A stretch of DNA of 64,000 nt from Zafaria cholistanensis (GTDB taxonomy: Bacteria; Actinomycetota; Actinomycetes; Actinomycetales; Micrococcaceae), in NCBI RefSeq assembly GCF_008580665.1, contig NZ_BKDJ01000002.1, positions 62,001 to 126,000 of the forward strand, in the 5' to 3' direction. Positions within the stretch are counted from its first letter, which is position 1; the number at the start of each line of letters is the position of its first letter. The translations under genes and the position numbers were made by a program. Below, piece after piece: positions 3,384 through 31,737 of the stretch. The notes below the pieces were generated by a model. The model did no database searches. It was not told the origin of the DNA and worked only from the letters and a program-made list of their open reading frames with translations.

Positions 3384-4978
3384 GCGTGCACCGGGTGATG
3401 GGGCTGGAGACGGAGTACGGCGTCCTGGCCCCGTCCCAGCCGGGTGCGAACTCGACCCTGCTCTCGGCCCAGGTGGTCAACGCCTACGCCGCCACCGTCC
3501 GGGCCGGCTACGGCCACCTGGCCGGGACCCGGTGGGACTATGCCGACGAGCATCCGCTCGACGACGCCCGCGGCTGGACGGTACCGCGCTCGGCTGCCGA
3601 CCCCAGCCAGCTCACCGACGAGCCGGCGGAACTCACCGCGGAGGAGATCGCCCTGGCCGGCGGGGACGCGCGGGCCGGGTCGACCCTGTATTCGGAGCGG
3701 GAGGCCGGCGGGCACGTGCTCATGAACATGGTGCTGGGCAATGGGGCGCGCCTGTACGTGGACCACGCCCACCCCGAGTACTCCTCCCCGGAGACGACCA
3801 ACCCCCTCGATGTGGTCCGCTGGGACCAGGCCGGGGACCTGGTGGTGCTGGCCGCGGCCCGGCGCATCGCCCAGACCCCCGGGTTCGCGGAGGTGCTGCT
3901 GTACAAGAACAACACCGACAACAAGGGCGTCAGCTATGGCGCCCACGAGAACTACCTCATGCCGCGCAAGACCAGCTTCGATGCGATTGTTGCCGGGCTG
4001 CTGCCGTTCTTTGCCACCCGGCAGGTCATCTGCGGGTCCGGGCGCGTGGGCCTGGGTTCGGCCGGGCACGGGCCCGGCTTCCAGGTCAGCCAGCGAGCCG
4101 ACTTCTTCGAGACGGAGGTGGGCCTGGAGACCACGATCCGCCGGCCGATGGTGAACACCCGCGACGAGCCGCACGCGGTGTGGGACAAGTACCGGCGCCT
4201 GCACGTCATCATCGGGGACGCCAACCTTGGCCAGGTCTCGACGTATCTGCGGGTCGGGACCACCGCGCTGGTGCTGTCCCTGATCGAGGCGGGCGAGGCG
4301 CCGGCGCTGCGGCTGCGCCACCCGGTGGCTGCCCTGCGGCAGGTCAGCCACGACCCGACGCTGCGCACCGCCGTCGAACTGGCCGACGGAAGGCGGATGA
4401 CCGCGCTGGACATCCAGGAGGCCTACCTGGTGGCGGCCCGCGCCCACTGCGAACGCTCGGGAGCCGGGGACGCCCAGACCCGCGACGTGCTGGAGCGCTG
4501 GCAGCGCACGATCGATACGCTGCGCACCGACGTCCTTGCGGCCGCCTCCACGGTGGACTGGGTGGCCAAGTACCGGTTGATGGAGCAGTACCGCGACCGG
4601 CACGGGCTGGGCTGGGACGATCCGCGCATCGCCCTGATGGACCTGCAGTGGGCGGACATCCGTCCGGAGAAGGGCCTCTACCACCGGCTGGCCGCGCGCG
4701 GGCTGGTGGAGACCCTGCTGCCGGCGGAGTCGGTCGCGGCGGCGGTGGCGGCCCCTCCGGAGGACACGCGCGCCTACTTCCGCGGGCGGTGCCTGACCGA
4801 TTTCCCGGAGGACGTCGTGGGCGCCAGCTGGGACGCGGTGATTTTCAGCGTTCCGGGCCGGGCCGGGCTGGAACGCGTGCAGACGCTGGAGCCCCTGCGC
4901 GGGACCCGTGCGCTGGTGGGCCCGCTGTTCGAGGCGGGCCTGGGGATTGCCGAGTTCGTGGATCAGGTCAGGTCCTGA
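3380..4978 (+). CDS. dop: Deamidase/depupylase Dop
   Basis: Carboxylate-amine-ligase-fold enzyme that deamidates the C-terminal Gln of Pup to Glu and also cleaves Pup off substrates. The N-terminus [13 protein letters not shown] is the ATP/Mg-binding signature shared with PafA. An insertion of about 60 residues follows it (the Dop loop, missing from PafA). The nucleophilic Asp is D128, in [13 protein letters not shown]. At 532 residues it is the normal length for Dop and longer than PafA. The GTG start overlaps the mpa stop (GTGA). A 97-base gap separates it from pup. Confidence 0.96.
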
Positions 4979-5075
4979 CATTTCATGCCTGACAAGGGGC
5001 ACCGCAGCGCCAAGACAGTGACAAGATAGAGGCGGGAGGGCCGCACGGCCCGCCCGAAGAGAGCAGGAGGACGCC

Positions 5076-5276
5076 ATGGCCCAGGAACAGTTCAAAGCCC
5101 AGCCCGCCCAGGGCGCGCAGGAGGAGGAGACCGAAGCTGCCGTTTCCGCCGGTCCCTCCGCCGCGGCCCAGGAACAGGTCCAGGCAGTGGACGACCTGCT
5201 GGACGAGATCGACGGGGTGCTGGAGCGCAACGCCGAGGAGTTCGTTCGCGGCTTCGTCCAGAAGGGTGGCCAGTAA
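5076..5276 (+). CDS. pup: Prokaryotic ubiquitin-like protein Pup
   Basis: 66-residue, acidic, intrinsically disordered tag that is attached through its C-terminal Glu side chain to lysines of target proteins. The C-terminus is GGQ, so this is the Gln form that must be deamidated by Dop before PafA can use it. The helix that binds the Mpa coiled coil is the segment around [22 protein letters not shown] before the ATG is a strong ribosome binding site, in line with the high level expected for a tag. prcB starts two bases after its stop. Confidence 0.98.
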
Positions 5277-5278
5277 CG

Positions 5279-6064
5279 GTGGTGGAGTTGCCCGCGGGGC
5301 CGTCCTTCCTCGAATACCTGGTGCGCGAGCGTCCGGACCTGCTGCCGTCCGGGGCCCTTCCCGAAGGGGTCCCCGCCGGGGTCCCGCACGCGACCACGAT
5401 CGTGTCCCTGGCCTTCGAGGGCGGGGTGGTGGTGGCGGGTGACCGCCGCGCCACCATCGGCAACGTGATTGCCAGCCGCCACATCGAGAAGGTCTTCCCG
5501 ACCGACCGCTACTCGGTGGTGGGGATCGCCGGTTCCGCAGGCATCGCCATGGACATCGCCCGCCTCTTCCAGGTGGAGCTTGAGCACTACGAGAAGATCG
5601 AGGGCACGCTGCTGAGCCTGGACGGCAAGGCCAACCGGCTGGCGTCCATGGTGCGGGGCAACCTGGGCATGGCCATGCAGGGCATGGCCGCGGTGCCGCT
5701 GTTCGCCGGCTACGACGAACTGCGCGGGACCGGGCGCCTGTTCTCCTTCGACGTCACCGGCGGGCGCTACGAGGAACGGGAGCACCACAGCATCGGCTCC
5801 GGCTCCATGTTCGCGCGCGGGGCGCTCAAGAAGCTCTGGAAACCGGGGCTGGCCCGCGAAGACGGCGTGAGGGTGGCCGTGGAGGCGCTCTTCGACGCGG
5901 CCGACGACGACTCCGCCACCGGCGGGCCCGACCCGCTGCGCCAGTTGTGGCCGGTCGTGTACGCGGTCGACGCCGGCGGGGCCACGCGGGTGGATGACGG
6001 CGTGCTGGCGGAGATCTCCGCCGCGATCATCCGCCAGCGCTCCATCGCGGGACGGGAGGCCTAG
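5279..6064 (+). CDS. prcB: 20S proteasome beta subunit PrcB
   Basis: Catalytic subunit of the proteasome core. The 261-residue precursor has a 38-residue propeptide; autocleavage before T39 (PHA/TTIVSL) would expose the nucleophilic N-terminal threonine. Downstream, AGDRRAT and the MVRGNL and [11 protein letters not shown] segments are the conserved PrcB blocks. The GTG start lies two bases after the pup stop and the gene ends directly against the prcA ATG, so pup-prcB-prcA form one translational unit. Confidence 0.97.
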
Positions 6065-6775
6065 ATGTCCGCACAGTTCTACGTTTCGCCCGAGCAGCTG
6101 ATGAAGGACCGGGCGGACTTCGCCCGCAAGGGCATCAGCCGGGGCCGGTCCGTGGTGGTGCTCAGCTGCCGCGACGGCATTGCCCTGGTCGCCGAGAACC
6201 CGTCCGGTTCGCTGCGCAAGATAGGGGAGCTGTACGACCGGATCGCGTTCGCGGCGGTCGGCAAATACAACGAGTTCGAATCGCTGCGCCAGGCCGGGGT
6301 GCGCTACGCCGACACCCGAGGCTACTCCTACGCCCGCGAGGACGTCACCGGGCGCGGCCTGGCCAGCGTCTACGCCCAGAGCCTCGGCGGGGTCTTCACG
6401 GCCGAGAGCAAGCCCTTCGAGGTGGAACTGGCGGTCGTGGAGGTCGGCGAGAGCCGGGTCTCGGACCACCTGTTCCGCCTCACCTTTGACGGATCCATCG
6501 CCGACGAGCCCGGCATGATCATCATGGGCGGCGACGCCGAGACCATCTCCGCCAGCCTGGCCGAGGCCTGGGGCGGGGCCGCAGGGGTGGAGCAGGGCTT
6601 CGGCGAGGCCATCCGGGCCGCGGCCGCGGCGCTGCCGGGCGTTCCCGAGGGGCCCGAGGGCGCGGCGATGCTGGAGGTGGCGGTCCTGGACCGCGACCCG
6701 CAGGCGCTGCGCGGGCAGCGGCGGTGCTTCCGCCGGCTGGACAAGAGCGAACTCGCCGTCATCCTGGCGGCCTGA
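6065..6775 (+). CDS. prcA: 20S proteasome alpha subunit PrcA
   Basis: Forms the outer rings that gate the proteasome and receive the Mpa C-terminal tails. The 236-residue product begins MSAQFYVSPEQLMKDRADFA, matching the gating N-terminus of actinobacterial alpha subunits, and continues with FARKGISRGRS and the alpha-subunit fold with no active-site threonine. There is no gap to prcB and 15 bases to pafA, whose ribosome binding site (AAGGGGGTAGG) lies in that space. Confidence 0.96.
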   Translation: MSAQFYVSPEQLMKDRADFARKGISRGRSVVVLSCRDGIALVAENPSGSLRKIGELYDRIAFAAVGKYNEFESLRQAGVRYADTRGYSYAREDVTGRGLASVYAQSLGGVFTAESKPFEVELAVVEVGESRVSDHLFRLTFDGSIADEPGMIIMGGDAETISASLAEAWGGAAGVEQGFGEAIRAAAAALPGVPEGPEGAAMLEVAVLDRDPQALRGQRRCFRRLDKSELAVILAA

Positions 6776-24961: not shown

Positions 24962-25713
24962 GGCTACGAGTGTGGCCCAGCGCACCGGTGCCAGGCAAAA
25001 CGCGGCAGGCGGCTGCACGGGCCGTCGTTGGACGCTTGCACAACGGCGGGGCAGGGGGCGCATAGTTATGTCAACCAAGCGTTATCGGTCAACGAGCCGT
25101 GCGCTGGGGGCGCGGGGACCGGCCGCATTGGCCCGAGGCTCAGAGTGCACTCCGGCGATTTTGGAGTTTTTGGAGTTGGCGTCCACGCCGCGCGGGACGG
25201 AACCGGCGTGGACGGGTGCCGCCGACGCGGGATTCGGGCGGGCCGACTGAAGGGAAACGAGCGAAATTCAGGCCAAATTGGGGGATGTGGATCCAGGGGG
25301 AGAAAGGTCCGGATTTACGCCCGAACCCCTTCCGGAGACCCCCCAACAAAACGCCGATAATCTACATTATGTCAACTTATGCGCAGGAGGGCACCAGGGC
25401 GGCACCGGGAAGGCTCCCCCAACCGATTGTTGTCGGTCAAAAGGGCAGCCCGCCCCCATACTGCACCCCTTGGGCGTTGCGTCACCCGGTCCCGGCGGCC
25501 ATCTCGCCATCCGAAGGTATCGCGGCGCCTTGGGCGGGACATTTTCGCATTGCATGACGCCGCGCTTGTGATCCCGGGGCCGAACACGTGCACCCATGTT
25601 GCGCGGGTAGCGCCCCTGGCCCGATACGGCGCCTCCCGGCCGGGGCGGAAGCCTGTCCAAAAGTGCCGGTCAGGCCCATGGCAGGAATGCCGCCCATGCG
25701 GAAGGGTGGAAAC
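24962..25713. other. Gene-poor region between zapE and the oxidoreductase
   Basis: 752 bases with no supported gene. The base composition drops below that of the neighbours. The decamer TTATGTCAAC occurs twice (25066-25075 and 25367-25376), and TTATCGGTCAA near 25082 is echoed by TTGTCGGTCAA near 25431. An AT-rich dyad, ATAAT-CTAC-ATTAT, lies at 25357-25370, overlapping GATAAT, which could be a -10. A 62-codon open frame begins at 25369 but its codon use is poor. Confidence 0.5.
25357..25370. promoter_or_regulatory. AT-rich dyad, possible operator
   Basis: Perfect inverted repeat ATAAT-N4-ATTAT in a roughly 70% GC background, placed next to a repeated TTATGTCAAC. The size suits MarR- or TetR-type binding, but no regulator gene is adjacent. 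Confidence 0.3.
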
Positions 25714-26661
25714 ATGAAAGAAATCACCATGCGCGCCGTTCGCCAGGATGAGCTGGGCGGACCCGAGGTCCTGAAGATCGTTGATGTCCCCCGCCCCCAG
25801 GTTCGCGCCAATGAAATCCTTGTACGCGTCCACGCCGCTGGCCTTAACCCCACGGACTGGAAGCACCGCGCCACCGGCGGCTTCCTCGGGGAGCCACCCT
25901 TCACCCTGGGCTGGGACCTGTCCGGCGTGGTGGAGGAGACGGGAGTCGGGGTCGCCCGCTTCCGGGTCGGCGACGAGGTCATGGGCATGCTCTCGTACCC
26001 TTTCGGCCACGGTTCCCACGCGGAGTACGTCACCGCACCGGCCCGCTGGTTCGTGCGCAAGCCCCACAGCATCGACCACGTGGAGGCCGCGGCCCTGCCG
26101 CTTGTGTCGCTGACCGCCTGGCAGGCCCTCGTCGAGAATGCCGGCCTTCAGGCCGGCCAGCGCGTCCTCATCCATGCCGCCGCCGGCGGCGTGGGCCACG
26201 TCGCCGCGCAGATCGCCAAGGCCCGGGGAGCCCATGTCACCGGCACGGCGAGCAAGGGTAAACACGAATTCCTGCGCAGCATCGGTGTCGATGAAGCAAT
26301 CGACTACCGCACCACCGACTTCGCCGAAGCTGTGGCGAACGCGGATGTCGTACTCGACACCCTTGGCGGGGATCACTCGATCCGGTCCTTGCATGTGGTC
26401 CGTCCCGGCGGGGCCGTGGTGTCCATCGTGCCTGTCGGGACGGAGGAGTTCTACGAGGAAGGGAAACGGCTGGGAGTTCGCGCGATCCGGATGCTGGTCG
26501 ACTCTTCCCATGCCCACCTGGACGCGATCACCGAACTTGTCGAGGCTGGGCAGCTGCGCGCCACGATCGCCGCGGCCTTCCCGCTCGCTGAGGCCGCCGA
26601 AGCCCACCGGCTGGGCGAGACCAACCGAACGAGCGGCAAGATCGTCCTCACGATGCCCTAG
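25714..26661 (+). CDS. NADP-dependent quinone-reductase-like oxidoreductase (MDR superfamily)
   Basis: 315 residues. GroES-like N-domain (MRAVRQDELGGPEVLKI; HAAGLNPTDWKHR) and a Rossmann domain with AAAGGVGHVAAQIAKARGA. Catalytic and structural zinc cysteines are absent, so it belongs to the zinc-independent quinone oxidoreductase group. The start is chosen for GAAGGGTGG ahead of the ATG and because the family N-terminus opens there. It stands alone between two gene-poor regions, followed by its own terminator. Confidence 0.9.
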   Translation: MKEITMRAVRQDELGGPEVLKIVDVPRPQVRANEILVRVHAAGLNPTDWKHRATGGFLGEPPFTLGWDLSGVVEETGVGVARFRVGDEVMGMLSYPFGHGSHAEYVTAPARWFVRKPHSIDHVEAAALPLVSLTAWQALVENAGLQAGQRVLIHAAAGGVGHVAAQIAKARGAHVTGTASKGKHEFLRSIGVDEAIDYRTTDFAEAVANADVVLDTLGGDHSIRSLHVVRPGGAVVSIVPVGTEEFYEEGKRLGVRAIRMLVDSSHAHLDAITELVEAGQLRATIAAAFPLAEAAEAHRLGETNRTSGKIVLTMP

Positions 26662-26703
26662 CCGAAACGTCCCCCACGCACTGGCGGGCTGCCCTCGGTG
26701 CGG

Positions 26704-26742
26704 GGGCCTGCCCGCGGCCAACCCCGCACCGCGGGCAGGCCC
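26704..26742. terminator. Hairpin terminator after the oxidoreductase
   Basis: Perfect 14-bp stem (26704-26717 with 26729-26742) and an 11-base loop, 42 bases after the stop codon. Confidence 0.7.
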
Positions 26743-27532
26743 GCGCACAAGCCATTCACACTTGGCCGTGCTCCGCGGCCGGACGGCGTGTCCCAGTGCG
26801 GCGGACCCATGTTTCGACCTGCAGATCACCACTACGCCTGTCACGCATCCCCGGAGCAGTCGGAGGGAACACTCACGGCGGGATGCGCCCGGGCGGCCGG
26901 GGGAAATCCGGGCACCCGGGCCATGCCCTTGAAGGGGTGGTAAACATCAACTTGATGACAAGGGCCCACTCCCCCGCGCTCCGCTGCCATGTATCCCGTC
27001 CTTCCCGGTCCGGCGGTCATTTCGCCCCTCAGAGGTGAGTATTTACCGAAGTCCCCGGGCGGATTCGGGGTCGGGACGCTGCGGCTATCGGGCTTCACGG
27101 CGTGGTGTGGATGGATGTCACCGCCATGCACTAAAGGCACATCATTCCCTGTACCCTCCGGGACCGCGACGCCATCCGTGCGAGTTGATGAGTGCTTCCC
27201 GGCACGGTCTTGCAACGGGAAGGATGTAAGACGAGTCGGCCAGGCAGGATGCCAGTCCCTGGGAAGGGCCATCCAGGGCGGCTGCCGATCTCTTGGCGGA
27301 CGCCGATTTGAGCGATCCCTCGGTGGAGTGTGGACTGGACGGTGCCAGGTCCCGATCGAGGCAGGCGGGGGTGCGCCGGCGCCCATGGGGCCGTGGGTGG
27401 TGGTGATTTGGCTGGTGGCGACACGCTGCCGGAGGTCCGGCGTTTGGCCGTGCCGGAGGGATTAGGGTTCAGTGGCGGAGGCGAGGATTGCCTGGGGCGC
27501 AGCCCCTAGTCAGGTGCCGGGTTTCTTGGCCG
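26743..27532. other. Gene-poor region upstream of the ECF41 locus
   Basis: About 790 bases in which I can support no gene. Open frames on both strands (for example 26989-27465 plus and 27131-27424 minus) have irregular codon use and resemble no family I know. There are no transposon ends or long repeats. It could be an eroded gene or a non-coding leader. Confidence 0.4.
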
Positions 27533-27559
27533 TGTCACGTTTCGGTCCCCTGCGGTGTC
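27533..27559 (+). promoter_or_regulatory. ECF41-type sigma-factor promoter
   Basis: TGTCACG (27533-27539), exactly 16 bases, TGTC (27556-27559). The published ECF41 consensus is TGTCACA-N16-CGTC. It lies 37 bases before the FAD oxidoreductase gene, which is followed directly by the ECF41 sigma gene, so the sigma factor probably drives its own operon. Confidence 0.7.
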
Positions 27560-27596
27560 CTATGTTCAAACGTTCGTCCAGCGATAGGAGTCTGCA

Positions 27597-28766
27597 GTGT
27601 CAGCACGTTGTCGGGTGGTTATCATCGGTGCCGGATATGCCGGGGTCATGGCCGCGAACAGGCTTGCCGGAAGCCGGCAGTTGTCTGATTCCATCAGCAT
27701 TACTGTCCTCAACCCGGTTGCCGAGTTCGTGGAAAGAATCCGTCTTCACGAGGTCGCGGCCGGAAGCCGGGAATCAGCCTCAGTACCGATGAGCTCTCTT
27801 CTGCATGAGGGTGCGAAGGTGGTCGAAGGCACCGCTTCGCGTATCGATCCTGAACGCCGCAAAGTGTACTTATCAGACGCCAGTGCCCCGCTCGACTACG
27901 ATGTCCTGCTGTACGCCGTGGGGAGCACCCAGGCATCGAGCAGGATCCCGGCCGGAGCGTACGGGCTGAAGGATGCCGGGGACGCACGCCGTGTGCAGGC
28001 GAGGCTGTCCCAGTTGGATCCGGGCGCGACCGTCAGCATCATCGGAGCCGGCCTGACCGGCATCGAGGTTACTGCCGAAATTGCGGAAAAATATCCGCAG
28101 CTGCAGGTGCGTCTCATTTCCCGCGGAGCCATCGCGGAGAACCTCTCCGGATCCGGCCGGCAGGCGATCATGACACGGCTTTCAGCCATTGGTGTCGACT
28201 TGGTGGAGAACACCGAAGTGCAACGCTGCGATGATTTTTCGGTCATGACTTCCGGCGGTGACACCCTGCAATCTGACTGCACGATCTGGACCGCCGGATT
28301 CACCGCACCGGACCTGGCACGGGACAGCGGGCTGCCAACGGACTCCTTGGGGCGCCTGATGGTCAACGAATCGCTTTCGTGTCCGCAATACCCCGACATT
28401 TTCGGTGCAGGCGATGCCATACGCGCCCCCCAGACGGTCGGCGGTCACCTGCGCATGAGCTGCGCGACGGCCCTGCCACTTGGTGCCCACGCGGCCGACA
28501 GCATCATCGCCCGCCTCGAAAAACGAACTCCAACCCCGCTTTCGGCCGGATACATGCTCAGGTGTATCAGCCTGGGCCGCCGCTCGGGGCTTGTTCAAAC
28601 CGTGCGTGCCGACGACCGGCCGCGCCGTTTCGTTCTTCGGGGCCGCCTCGCTGGATTGGCGAAAGCGCAGATGTGCCAAATGACGCTTTCATGGATCAGG
28701 GGCGAGCGTCGCCGGAGTGGTTCGTACACCTGGCCCAAGGGCCCCCGGCCGGTGGAAGCCAGGTAA
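27597..28766 (+). CDS. FAD-dependent NAD(P)H oxidoreductase (NDH-2-like)
   Basis: 389 residues. First dinucleotide fold VVIIGAGYAG (GAGYAG at 11-16) for FAD; second VSIIGAGLTGIEV for NAD(P)H; third FAD contact PDIFGAGDA. The architecture matches the pyridine-nucleotide-disulfide/NDH-2 family, without a redox disulfide and without a clear C-terminal membrane anchor. The GTG start is preceded by GATAGGAG. It is the usual operon partner of ECF41 sigma factors in actinobacteria. The natural electron acceptor is unknown. Confidence 0.88.
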   Translation: MSARCRVVIIGAGYAGVMAANRLAGSRQLSDSISITVLNPVAEFVERIRLHEVAAGSRESASVPMSSLLHEGAKVVEGTASRIDPERRKVYLSDASAPLDYDVLLYAVGSTQASSRIPAGAYGLKDAGDARRVQARLSQLDPGATVSIIGAGLTGIEVTAEIAEKYPQLQVRLISRGAIAENLSGSGRQAIMTRLSAIGVDLVENTEVQRCDDFSVMTSGGDTLQSDCTIWTAGFTAPDLARDSGLPTDSLGRLMVNESLSCPQYPDIFGAGDAIRAPQTVGGHLRMSCATALPLGAHAADSIIARLEKRTPTPLSAGYMLRCISLGRRSGLVQTVRADDRPRRFVLRGRLAGLAKAQMCQMTLSWIRGERRRSGSYTWPKGPRPVEAR

Positions 28767-28770
28767 GGCT

Positions 28771-29664
28771 GTGGAAAGCGCCGGAGTGTTCGAGGAACAC
28801 CGTTCCCTGCTTTTCACCATTGCCTACGAAATCACCGGGACCGCGACCGATGCCGAGGACGTCGTTCAGGACAGCTTTCTGAGATGGTCCCAGGTTGATG
28901 CGAAAACTGTCCAAAATCCGCGCGCCTATCTCGCCAAAACGGTCACGCGTCAAGCGCTGAATTCCCTCAGGGCAGCCCAACGACGCCGGGAAGACTACAT
29001 CGGTCCGTGGCTCCCGGAGCCTGTGGTCACGGCCCCGGACGTCGCTGAGCATGCCGTACTGAGTGAAGCGCTGTCTTTTGCGATGCTCGTGGTGCTTGAG
29101 ACACTCTCCCCCGATGAGCGCGCCGTTTTCGTCCTTCGCGAGGTTTTCGATTTTCCCTACGCGGAGATCGCCGAAGCCACGGACAAGTCGCTCGCGGCCG
29201 TCCGTCAGATGGCAAGCCGGGCAAAGGCGCACGTCCGCGCACGGCAACCGCGCTTCGAGGTGGATGCACAGCGGCAACGGGCGGTTGCCGACCGGTTCCT
29301 CGAGGCTCTGCTGGGAGGCGACATGCAGTCCCTGATGGATACCCTCGCCCCGGGCGCCGTCCTGCTCTCCGATGGCGGAGGAAAAGTCACAGCGGCCCGC
29401 AAACCCGTTATCGGCGCAGACAACATCACCCGCTTCCTTGCCGGAATCGCTAAAACCCCGGTGCCCCAGATGCGGGTGGAACTGTCATCCCTCAATGGAA
29501 TGCCGGCCCTCGTCGTATACAGCGGAGACAGGGTCGACGTTGTGGCACTTGTTGAATCAAACAACGAGTACGTTACCGGCATCTACCTCGTACGGAATCC
29601 GGACAAACTCGGCGCGACCACCGAGGCCCGCGCCTTCCACTACGTCATCACCGCCGGAAAGTGA
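28771..29664 (+). CDS. ECF41-family RNA polymerase sigma factor with SnoaL-like C-terminal domain
   Basis: 297 residues: sigma region 2 (residues 5-75, with TDAEDVVQDSFLRW), region 4 (105-160, LSPDERAVFVLREVFDFPYAEIAEA), then a SnoaL/NTF2-like extension (about 175-297, with the ECF41-typical DGGGKV). In ECF41 proteins this extension replaces an anti-sigma factor and tunes activity from within. GTG 28771 is chosen because AGGTAAGG precedes it; it follows the oxidoreductase stop by 4 bases, so they form one operon under the promoter at 27533. Confidence 0.9.
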   Translation: MESAGVFEEHRSLLFTIAYEITGTATDAEDVVQDSFLRWSQVDAKTVQNPRAYLAKTVTRQALNSLRAAQRRREDYIGPWLPEPVVTAPDVAEHAVLSEALSFAMLVVLETLSPDERAVFVLREVFDFPYAEIAEATDKSLAAVRQMASRAKAHVRARQPRFEVDAQRQRAVADRFLEALLGGDMQSLMDTLAPGAVLLSDGGGKVTAARKPVIGADNITRFLAGIAKTPVPQMRVELSSLNGMPALVVYSGDRVDVVALVESNNEYVTGIYLVRNPDKLGATTEARAFHYVITAGK

Positions 29665-29787
29665 GTTTTGCAACGGCCCTTTGAAATCGCCGGAGGGATG
29701 CACGACGGTTGTGTCGAGACATAAGGTCCCCGGATTCAGGTTTCAGCCCCGGCCGGCCTTCCTCCCTATTCGGAGCCTTGCGCGGCA

Positions 29788-29819
29788 GGGGCTCCCCGTA
29801 ACGATGTGCGGGGAGCCCC
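29788..29819. terminator. Bidirectional terminator between convergent genes
   Basis: Perfect 11-bp stem, GGGGCTCCCCG with CGGGGAGCCCC, and a 10-base loop, between the ECF41 gene and the secreted-protein gene. Confidence 0.7.
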
Positions 29820-29849
29820 ACCACGCCCGAGCCGGCGCGGTGCAGCAGG

Positions 29850-30389
29850 TCAGCGTCCGCCGATCACGCCCTTTTCGACCGCCTTGGTGACCGCGTCGGC
29901 CTCCTGCTGCGTCAGGGTTCCGTCCCCGACCGCCGTATCCAGCCTGGACTTGAGCTTGGCCGCACGCTCGCTCTGCCGCGCCTCACGAATCTCTTCCAGG
30001 GCCGCAGTGACCTTGTTTTCCTCAACGTCGAGCGATTCGGCCAGAGATACTGCCAGCGCCGAGTCCCTGGCCGAACGGTCCGGCTTGGTGGCGCCGCCGG
30101 CGTTCTCGACGGTCCGGTTCGCTTCCCTGAACGCTTCCAAGGCCTCGGCCACTTTGGCTTCCTCGACGCCGAGCCTGGTGGCCAGGTCCGCCGCCAGTTC
30201 TCCCCGGTCACCGTGGTGCCCGCCCCTGCCCTGCATGGAGTTGCTCTCCTCCCCGGCCGCGCTGGAGGTGGTCTCCGACGTGGAGGCCGGCAGCTCGGAT
30301 GCCGACGCGGCCCCCGCAAGGCCCAGCCCTGCGGCCAGCGCCAGCGCAGCGGCGGAAGTTCCCAGCGTGATGGTTTTTCTCGTTGCCAT
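29850..30389 (-). CDS. Secreted helical-repeat protein of unknown function
   Basis: 179 residues. Signal peptide (residues 1-31, MATRKTITLG then a hydrophobic stretch ending ASA), a Ser/Thr/Gly-rich spacer, and two copies of a ~35-residue helical unit: LAADLATRLGVEEAKVAEALEAF and LAVSLAESLDVEENKVTAALEEI. The C-terminus has LTQQEADAVTKAVEKG. Similar units are common in exported actinobacterial proteins of unknown role. GGAGGGAA stands before the ATG. Confidence 0.75.
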   Translation of the reverse strand: MATRKTITLGTSAAALALAAGLGLAGAASASELPASTSETTSSAAGEESNSMQGRGGHHGDRGELAADLATRLGVEEAKVAEALEAFREANRTVENAGGATKPDRSARDSALAVSLAESLDVEENKVTAALEEIREARQSERAAKLKSRLDTAVGDGTLTQQEADAVTKAVEKGVIGGR

Positions 30390-30652
30390 ATTCGTTTCCC
30401 TCCATGGGCCGCCACAGGCGGTGCCGTCGGTTGGCCGGCGGGGTTTCACCGGCCACCCTCCACCCTCCTCAAGCCGGTTGAAACGGACCTGTCATGGGGC
30501 TATCAACGGGCTGTGCGCTTCCGGCCCGCATGCCTGCCGAAGGGAAGCTGAAGGCCGATTGCTTTGCCCGGTGCACTCCGCTTGCCACGCAGCCCGCGGT
30601 CAACGCGCGTCACTTTCCAGCGGCGGACAGCCTGCCGCCTTATGCTCTGAAT
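30390..30652. other. Divergent intergenic region
   Basis: Non-coding space between the secreted-protein gene (minus) and the DUF808 transcription unit (plus). It holds the ribosome binding site of the former near 30400 and a possible -10, TATGCT (30641-30646), for the latter; nothing else stands out. Confidence 0.45.
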
Positions 30653-30727
30653 ATGCCTACCATGCGCCTCATCCCCAAACTCCACGCCCAGCCTTCCGCC
30701 GGCAAACGGTTCAGGGGCAACCTGTGA
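30653..30727 (+). CDS. Possible 24-residue leader peptide coupled to the DUF808 gene
   Basis: Begins at an ATG 6 bases after TATGCT, with no ribosome binding site (leaderless arrangement), encodes a basic peptide beginning MPTMRLIPKLHAQ and ends at a TGA that overlaps the GTG of the DUF808 gene by four bases (GTGA). The position and overlap suggest translational coupling. The peptide matches nothing I know and could be chance. Confidence 0.35.
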   Translation: MPTMRLIPKLHAQPSAGKRFRGNL

Positions 30728-31737
30728 GCGGCGGTCTCGTCGCGCTGCTGGACGACATCGCCGCCCTGGCCCGCATAGCGGCCGCTTCGGTGGACGACGT
30801 CGCTGCCGGGGCCACCAAGGCGGGGGCCAAGGCCGCCGGCGTGGTGATTGACGACGCCGCCGTCACCCCGCAGTACGTATCCGGGGCGGATCCGTCCCGC
30901 GAACTGCCGATGATCAAGCGCATCTTCTGGGGCTCGCTCCGGAACAAACTGCTGATCATCCTGCCGGCCCTGCTGCTCATCAGCGCCTTCATCCCGGGGG
31001 TCGTTCCCTTCATCCTCATGCTGGGTGGCACCTACCTCTGCTACGAGGGCGCCGAGAAGGTCTGGCATAAGCTGCGCGGCCACCACGCGGGGGAAACGGC
31101 GCCGGCGGTCCAACAGGGCCCGGAGGCGGAGGCCAAGGTCACAAAGGGGGCCATCACCACCGATTTCATCCTGTCCTGCGAGATCATGGTCATCTCAATG
31201 AACGAGGTGGCCGATGAGCCCCTGTGGGTCCGGGCGGTCATCCTGGTCGTCGTGGCGCTCGCGATCACCGTGATTGTGTACGGCGCCGTCGCACTCATCG
31301 TCAAGATGGACGACATGGGCCTGCACCTGGCCGGCAGGAAATCTCCGGGCTCCCGGCGCCTCGGTGAACTGCTTGTCAAGGGAATGCCCGCCGTACTGGC
31401 CGCGATCACCTTTATCGGGACGATCGCCATGCTCTGGGTTGGCGGTCACATCATGCTCCAGGGTGCCTATGACCTCGGCTGGCACGGGCCGTATGACCTG
31501 GTCCACGCCCTTGAGGGCCCTGTCGCCGGAATCCCGGTGGCCGGCAGCGCCCTGGCCTGGCTCGTGAACACCCTGTGCTCGGCCGTCCTGGGACTGGCCT
31601 GGGGCCTCGCCGTCATGGCCATCGTGCACCCGCTGCTCAAAGTGCTCCCGTTCGGCAGGAAGGGCGGGCACGAAGAGGGAGACCTCCGTGCCGCCGCCGC
31701 CGGCTACCGCCCGGGCGAACGCGACGCCACTCCCTAG
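30724..31737 (+). CDS. DUF808 (YedI-type) inner membrane protein
   Basis: 337 residues. The N-terminus SGGLVALLDDIAALARIAAASVDD and the segment VSGADPSRELPMIKRI are the DUF808/YedI signatures; about six to seven transmembrane helices follow (LLIILPALLLISAFIPGV; GGTYLCYEGAEKV; several in the second half). The function is unknown in all organisms. The GTG start fits the family N-terminus and follows AGGGGC; the longer open frame upstream has no family similarity. Confidence 0.9.
   Translation: MSGGLVALLDDIAALARIAAASVDDVAAGATKAGAKAAGVVIDDAAVTPQYVSGADPSRELPMIKRIFWGSLRNKLLIILPALLLISAFIPGVVPFILMLGGTYLCYEGAEKVWHKLRGHHAGETAPAVQQGPEAEAKVTKGAITTDFILSCEIMVISMNEVADEPLWVRAVILVVVALAITVIVYGAVALIVKMDDMGLHLAGRKSPGSRRLGELLVKGMPAVLAAITFIGTIAMLWVGGHIMLQGAYDLGWHGPYDLVHALEGPVAGIPVAGSALAWLVNTLCSAVLGLAWGLAVMAIVHPLLKVLPFGRKGGHEEGDLRAAAAGYRPGERDATP

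Follow-up and report, generated by a model that had tools for sequence, protein, structure and literature searches.

A probable self-activating ECF41 sigma factor operon in Zafaria cholistanensis, and a sigma residue that co-varies with the -10 base ahead of GTC

Gene content of the locus

Within a 64,000-nucleotide stretch of the genome of the soil-type actinobacterium Zafaria cholistanensis (hereafter, the window), we analyzed two plus-strand genes that lie end to end. The first (27597..28766) encodes a 389 aa FAD/NAD(P) oxidoreductase (Pyr_redox_2) with a type II NADH dehydrogenase (NDH-2) fold, and the second (28771..29664) a 297 aa ECF41 sigma factor, identified through Pfam and NCBIfam family models, motifs, and solved relatives. 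The mechanically called ORF of the sigma gene begins at 28717; we chose the GTG at 28771, which sits 4 nt past the oxidoreductase stop, as the most likely start by comparison with relatives.

The sigma factor scored 352.2 bits against TIGR02957 (SigX4), passing the curated cut-off of 323.25, and only 88 bits against TIGR02960 (SigX5), for which the cut-off is 264.75. We take TIGR02957 to represent ECF41, and the equation of both models with ECF groups is likewise our own reading. The linker between sigma2 and sigma4 carries the WLPEP motif (residues 80-84, 29008..29022), present in all 110 loci of the first comparison set described below. The C terminus holds a SnoaL_2-like domain (29290..29541) that scored 22.3 bits (E 0.0002), under the Pfam cut-off of 27. 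Two conserved motifs of the extension, DGGGK and NPDKL, were also found: the former (29371..29385) was exact in 43 of the 110 loci, while the position of the latter (29596..29610) read NPDKL in 80 and NPEKL in 20. The published section on the ECF41 extension describes three motifs, which its text leaves unnamed (PMC3426412). The first-pass annotation had called an ECF41 sigma factor with a SnoaL-like extension 3' of the oxidoreductase, and the TIGR02957 score together with WLPEP, DGGGK, and NPDKL bears this out.

An AlphaFold2 model of the oxidoreductase, built from 45 aligned sequences, had a mean pLDDT of 94.7 and shared its fold over the whole length with NDH-2 enzymes (PDB 9a63, 5kmq, 4nwz, 5na1); the best six rows of the comparison gave Z 43.8-45.7 and rmsd 2.0-2.1 over 354-359 residues at 21-26% identity. 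The quinone site of NDH-2 is marked by the motif AQxxxQ. Here, CATALP aligned with AQIAWQ of YjlD, and the 45 sequences gave the consensus CQxAxP at this place. Unlike NDH-2, the oxidoreductase thus has a proline, Pro294, in place of the second Gln of the motif, conserved in at least 90% of the 45 sequences, and Cys289 was invariant among them. We did not give the protein the NDH-2 label and regard it as a probable NAD(P)H-dependent flavin enzyme. It reached no cut-off among the 24 NCBIfam families listed and had no match in a PHROGs search.

The promoter and leader

A motif of the form TGTCACG-N16-TGTC (TGTCACGTTTCGGTCCCCTGCGGTGTC) occupies 27533-27559, 37 nt upstream of the oxidoreductase GTG at 27597, so that the sequence and placement given for it in the first-pass annotation were both confirmed. 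Its -35 element, TGTCACG (27533..27539), and its -10 element, GGTGTC (27554..27559), are supported by alignment with four near relatives. The T at 27556, within the -10 element, is the base that co-varies with sigma residue 64. The leader (27560..27596) contains AGGAG at 27586-27590 ahead of the start codon. In Sinorhizobium meliloti, the rpoE9 operon is transcribed from a point 9 nt past a motif of this kind (PMC3616915); by analogy, a start near 27568 is predicted here, which would make the 5' leader about 29 nt long.

The ECF41 consensus, located ahead of the partner gene, is TGTCACA-N16+/-1-CGTC (PMC3426412), from which the window site differs by two letters. The departure behind the first-pass description of the promoter as near-consensus probably has a cause, in that TGTC is the form paired with Asn64 of the sigma factor (see below). 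The promoter of Bacillus licheniformis ydfG, an ECF41 target that has been tested, also departs at this place, with a -10 that ends in TGTT (PMC3426412).

Conservation of the promoter

As a bare string, the promoter match has no significance. Chance alone predicts 1.11 matches to the pattern TGTCAC-N15..18-YGTC over 64 kb, and the pattern turned up in 71 of 100 shuffles, as would suit a chance match ahead of an unrelated gene pair; significance comes from position and conservation. We assembled a first set of 110 ECF41 loci, of which 48, counting the window itself, had a relative of the oxidoreductase immediately upstream in the same orientation (47 distinct upstream sequences), and sought a strict site (TGTCAC-N16..18-YGTC) within 230 bp upstream of each pair. 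The strict site was present at the same place in 37 of the 48 loci and on the antisense strand in none (0/48), while coding windows yielded 2 in 876 and shuffled sequences a mean of 0.17 of 48, with a maximum of 1 over 200 rounds. This footprint leads us to reject chance as the source of the site and leaves that explanation next to no probability. In the 11 pairs that lacked a strict site, the best candidate had one mismatch in five cases and two in six. In one pair with a strict promoter (L008), the oxidoreductase gene, otherwise 66% identical, is interrupted by an in-frame stop at the 28th codon of the frame as read.

In the four near relatives (L035, L037, L007, L036), the block conserved with the window begins at the -35 element or up to about 10 bases before it and extends through the -10 element into the leader, with little similarity further upstream. 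Within the 160 bases that lead up to the start codon, similarity to the near relatives was low upstream of the -35 region. No gene is assigned to the roughly 870 bases ahead of the promoter (26662-27532).

The upstream sequence shared with the near relatives is centred on the ECF41 elements, which also speaks against a reading in which another sigma factor mainly transcribes the operon and the ECF41 site is minor or inactive. One sigma-70-like match does occur in 26600-29900, at 27597-27625, and ECF41 deletion strains have been reported to give no reproducible phenotype (PMC3426412). The match, however, begins at the start codon itself, and chance alone would give 0.6 matches of this kind over the region searched. 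We consider transcription mainly by another sigma factor quite unlikely.

Neighboring genes and genome-wide targets

Neither immediate neighbor of the gene pair matched an anti-sigma family when the two were scanned against Pfam and NCBIfam. Together with the Pyr_redox_2 neighbor, this places the locus within the described ECF41 context, in which the sigma gene is accompanied by a carboxymuconolactone decarboxylase, oxidoreductase, or epimerase and by no anti-sigma gene (PMC3426412). One neighbor encodes a zinc-binding dehydrogenase. The other, a 199-residue ORF on the minus strand (29850-30449) with an N terminus that resembles a signal peptide by eye, had no match in Pfam or NCBIfam and no counterpart in the collected loci besides the window's own. 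The dehydrogenase matched at two loci only (L143 and L159, 36-37%), a comparison mainly informative for L035-L114, as many loci extend just ~1.5 kb past the sigma gene. Outer neighbors thus generally do not appear to travel with the gene pair. Just past the dehydrogenase gene, a strong inverted repeat at 26698-26748, with 20 nt arms that are 95% complementary and separated by 11 nt, is perhaps a transcription end; it was absent from the list produced by the terminator scan. No RNA family reached its gathering score in 25000-31000.

The oxidoreductase is not a universal partner, given that 62 of the 110 first-set loci had no such gene directly upstream. Several loci carried a second related oxidoreductase, located downstream in L046 and further upstream in L057 and L071. 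In L061 the second gene (5020-6204) is downstream of the sigma gene and is preceded, at a distance of about 100 nt, by a second ECF41-type site of the GGTGTC form near position 4916.

In the source genome, one sigma factor exceeded the TIGR02957 cut-off, and the next match to it was 25% identical. A genome scan for the promoter, as the first-pass annotation had proposed, returned three strict sites at the window spacing, compared with five for the reversed control. Apart from that of the operon, both sites were inside ORFs, which appear on visual reading to encode an ABC transporter and a membrane protein. Sites of the GGTGTC form with one mismatch numbered 11, against 7 for the reversed control, which is no clear enrichment. 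We therefore rejected a wider regulon at this spacing. The three sites, with two of them intragenic, fit the single target operon that Wecke et al. report for ECF41 sigma factors (PMC3426412, section 25).

Co-variation of residue 64 with the promoter base

The window combines Asn64 in sigma region 2 (codon at 28960..28962) with T before GTC, and all 13 loci with a sigma identity of at least 67% (L006-L015, L035-L037) had GGTGTC. The link between residue and base first emerged when promoters were set against sigma sequences. We pursued it in 214 distinct sigma factors, mostly from Actinomycetota, with some from Pseudomonadota and Cyanobacteriota plasmids, using a promoter pattern with two free positions, the one ahead of GT and the final one. 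Loci were chosen by similarity and by hand and are thus non-random; 100 were hand-picked before either the residue or the promoter was known, and 16 plasmid records were taken from 60 of 405 that matched. Before sigma factors were counted, L002-L005 (pattern hits and an unrelated sigma) were excluded, and removal of one identical sigma reduced the set from 215 to 214.

A site was found for 141 of the sigma factors and for none of the other 73. Asn64 was accompanied by T in 73 cases and by G in four, while every other residue at this position was accompanied by C (Asp 53, Glu 7, Ser 3, Gln 1). The correspondence of Asn with T and of other residues with C was accordingly kept by 137 of the 141, the exceptions being the four Asn64 loci with G before GTN (L060, L111, L211, L218). 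Six loci held more than one site, and the choice among them followed a rule that ignored the residue; with the last site taken in place of the first, T became G in a single Asn row. A looser -35 pattern added three non-Asn rows with A or G. The rule was not kept by similar strings within the sigma gene or immediately past its end, which served as a control in 11 loci, with Asn accompanied by T in four, C in two, and G in one.

This agreement could reflect drift between lineages, with the T/C difference unrelated to residue 64, given that large clades share both states and that other alignment columns partly track the base (column 61, the next best, 0.661 bits; column 20, 0.643 bits). Column 64, however, alone predicted every T/C row, holding 0.997 of the 0.997 bits available (137 rows, columns with at most 30% gaps). 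On a quick tree inferred with column 64 omitted, the residue and the promoter base each changed nine times, and seven of seven independent pairs agreed (sign test p 0.0156). Residues 60 and 61 fell short, the promoter base changing along with them on average in 0.7 of 4 pairs and 3.2 of 7 pairs, respectively. Residue 60 (Arg/Asn) was also rejected as the determinant since Arg occurred with all three bases (T 73, C 49, G 4). Finally, in 40 further loci gathered after the rule had been written down, all 25 with a site obeyed it (Asn with T, 16/16; Asp with C, 9/9), and no site was found in the other 15. Lineage drift is, on this evidence, an unlikely explanation.

It is thus probable that residue 64, as Asn or as Asp/Glu, sets the base before GTC, and that there are two classes of ECF41 promoter, TGTC and CGTC, between which repeated, matched switches of residue and base pair have occurred. 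Viewed across the aligned loci, the TGTC of the window does not look like promoter decay, and Asn at residue 64 is predicted for the B. licheniformis Ecf41 sigma factor from the TGTT of its target promoter.

In one oxidoreductase-linked subgroup with CGTC (L054, L059, L062, L063, L065, L066, L074, L080), the site is longer by one base, for a total of 28, and residue 64 is Glu, Asp, or Gln. Additionally, Streptomyces ECF41 loci (e.g., L069, L075, L077, L079) have AID at residues 62-64, lack any strict site within 2.5 kb, and resemble the orphan ECF41 sigma factors that have been described (PMC3426412).

A possible structural basis for the proposed role of residue 64

Published structures offer a candidate contact. 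In the open complex of sigmaH, the template base of the -10 G:C pair is hydrogen-bonded by N92, and N88 contacts the next base; Mycobacterium tuberculosis SigJ has Arg at the place of N88 (PMC6411747). Arg60 of the window sigma factor aligns without gaps to this Arg, which puts Asn64 at the place of N92, adjoining the pair that varies. At the position of Asn64, SigJ has Asp, and its holoenzyme is reported to favor C-G ahead of the -10 (PMC6372665), a combination that fits the rule for residue 64. The scaffold of the sigmaL structure lacks that C-G and is hence uninformative on the contact (PMC6372665).

The alignment, with the co-variation, suggests that residue 64 contacts the base pair before GTC directly. 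In ordinary protein-DNA chemistry, Asn would read adenine, and thereby T:A, while Asp or Glu would accept a bond from cytosine.

Relation to known systems and proposed mechanism

The arrangement of an enzyme gene followed by the sigma gene, with the promoter before the enzyme and no anti-sigma factor, was published for ECF41 in 2012 (PMC3426412). There, 97 of 107 such loci had a promoter before the enzyme and none before the sigma gene, and Pyr_redox_2 enzymes are on the list of partners. The window has in common with the ECF41 group of Wecke et al. the order sigma2-WLPEP-sigma4-extension, the enzyme gene in first position, the lack of an anti-sigma gene, and a promoter of the TGTCACA-N16-CGTC type before the enzyme gene of a single target operon. 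It differs in that its -10 reads TGTC (GGTGTC) rather than CGTC, and in its oxidoreductase partner, as the two members that those authors tested have carboxymuconolactone decarboxylases. The best solved relative by sequence is SigJ of M. tuberculosis (PDB 5xe7; E 5.3e-49, residues 6-234), which shares WLPEP and the C-terminal SnoaL-like extension (PMC8999054) and differs by the Asp noted above. ECF56 and other SnoaL-bearing ECF groups also have a SnoaL-like C-terminal extension (PMC8999054); unlike these, the window sigma factor passes TIGR02957 and falls far below the TIGR02960 cut-off.

Overall, we put the probability at about 85% that the gene pair is a two-gene, self-activating ECF41 operon in which Asn64 reads T:A before GTC. 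RNA polymerase carrying the ECF41 sigma factor would read TGTCAC-N17-TGTC at 27533-27559, and the oxidoreductase and sigma genes would be transcribed together from this site. Transcription from the site and the resulting autoregulation are what the sequence comparisons lead us to expect. In place of an anti-sigma factor, the fused SnoaL-like extension would set sigma activity; such control has been published for other ECF41 members, and a partly shortened extension was reported to give higher activity (PMC3426412). Asn64 would read the pair before GTC as T:A, while sister sigma factors with Asp, Glu, Gln, or Ser at this position would read C:G. The first-pass proposal of a self-driven two-gene operon without an anti-sigma factor is therefore supported, by the conserved promoter, the published arrangement, and the absence of an anti-sigma neighbor, with autoregulation as its inferred part.

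Our literature search, which covered the openings of abstracts and had Todor 2020 outside its scope, returned no statement of the residue 64 rule or of a T/C split in ECF41. A later paper (PMC11588781) cites Todor 2020 for amino-acid/nucleotide pairs across 41,665 ECF sigma factors. The residue-base rule might thus be the one part that is new, and its value would drop to confirmation within ECF41 if a general ECF specificity study already lists the pair.

The operon adds one case to the published ECF41 pattern. The co-variation offers a reason for the departure of its promoter from the published consensus and predicts which ECF41 sigma factor reads which promoter form, such that residue 64 would be a one-residue handle on -10 specificity in ECF41. 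If the rule is true, two ECF41 copies within one genome could be insulated from each other by their pairing of residue 64 with the promoter base.
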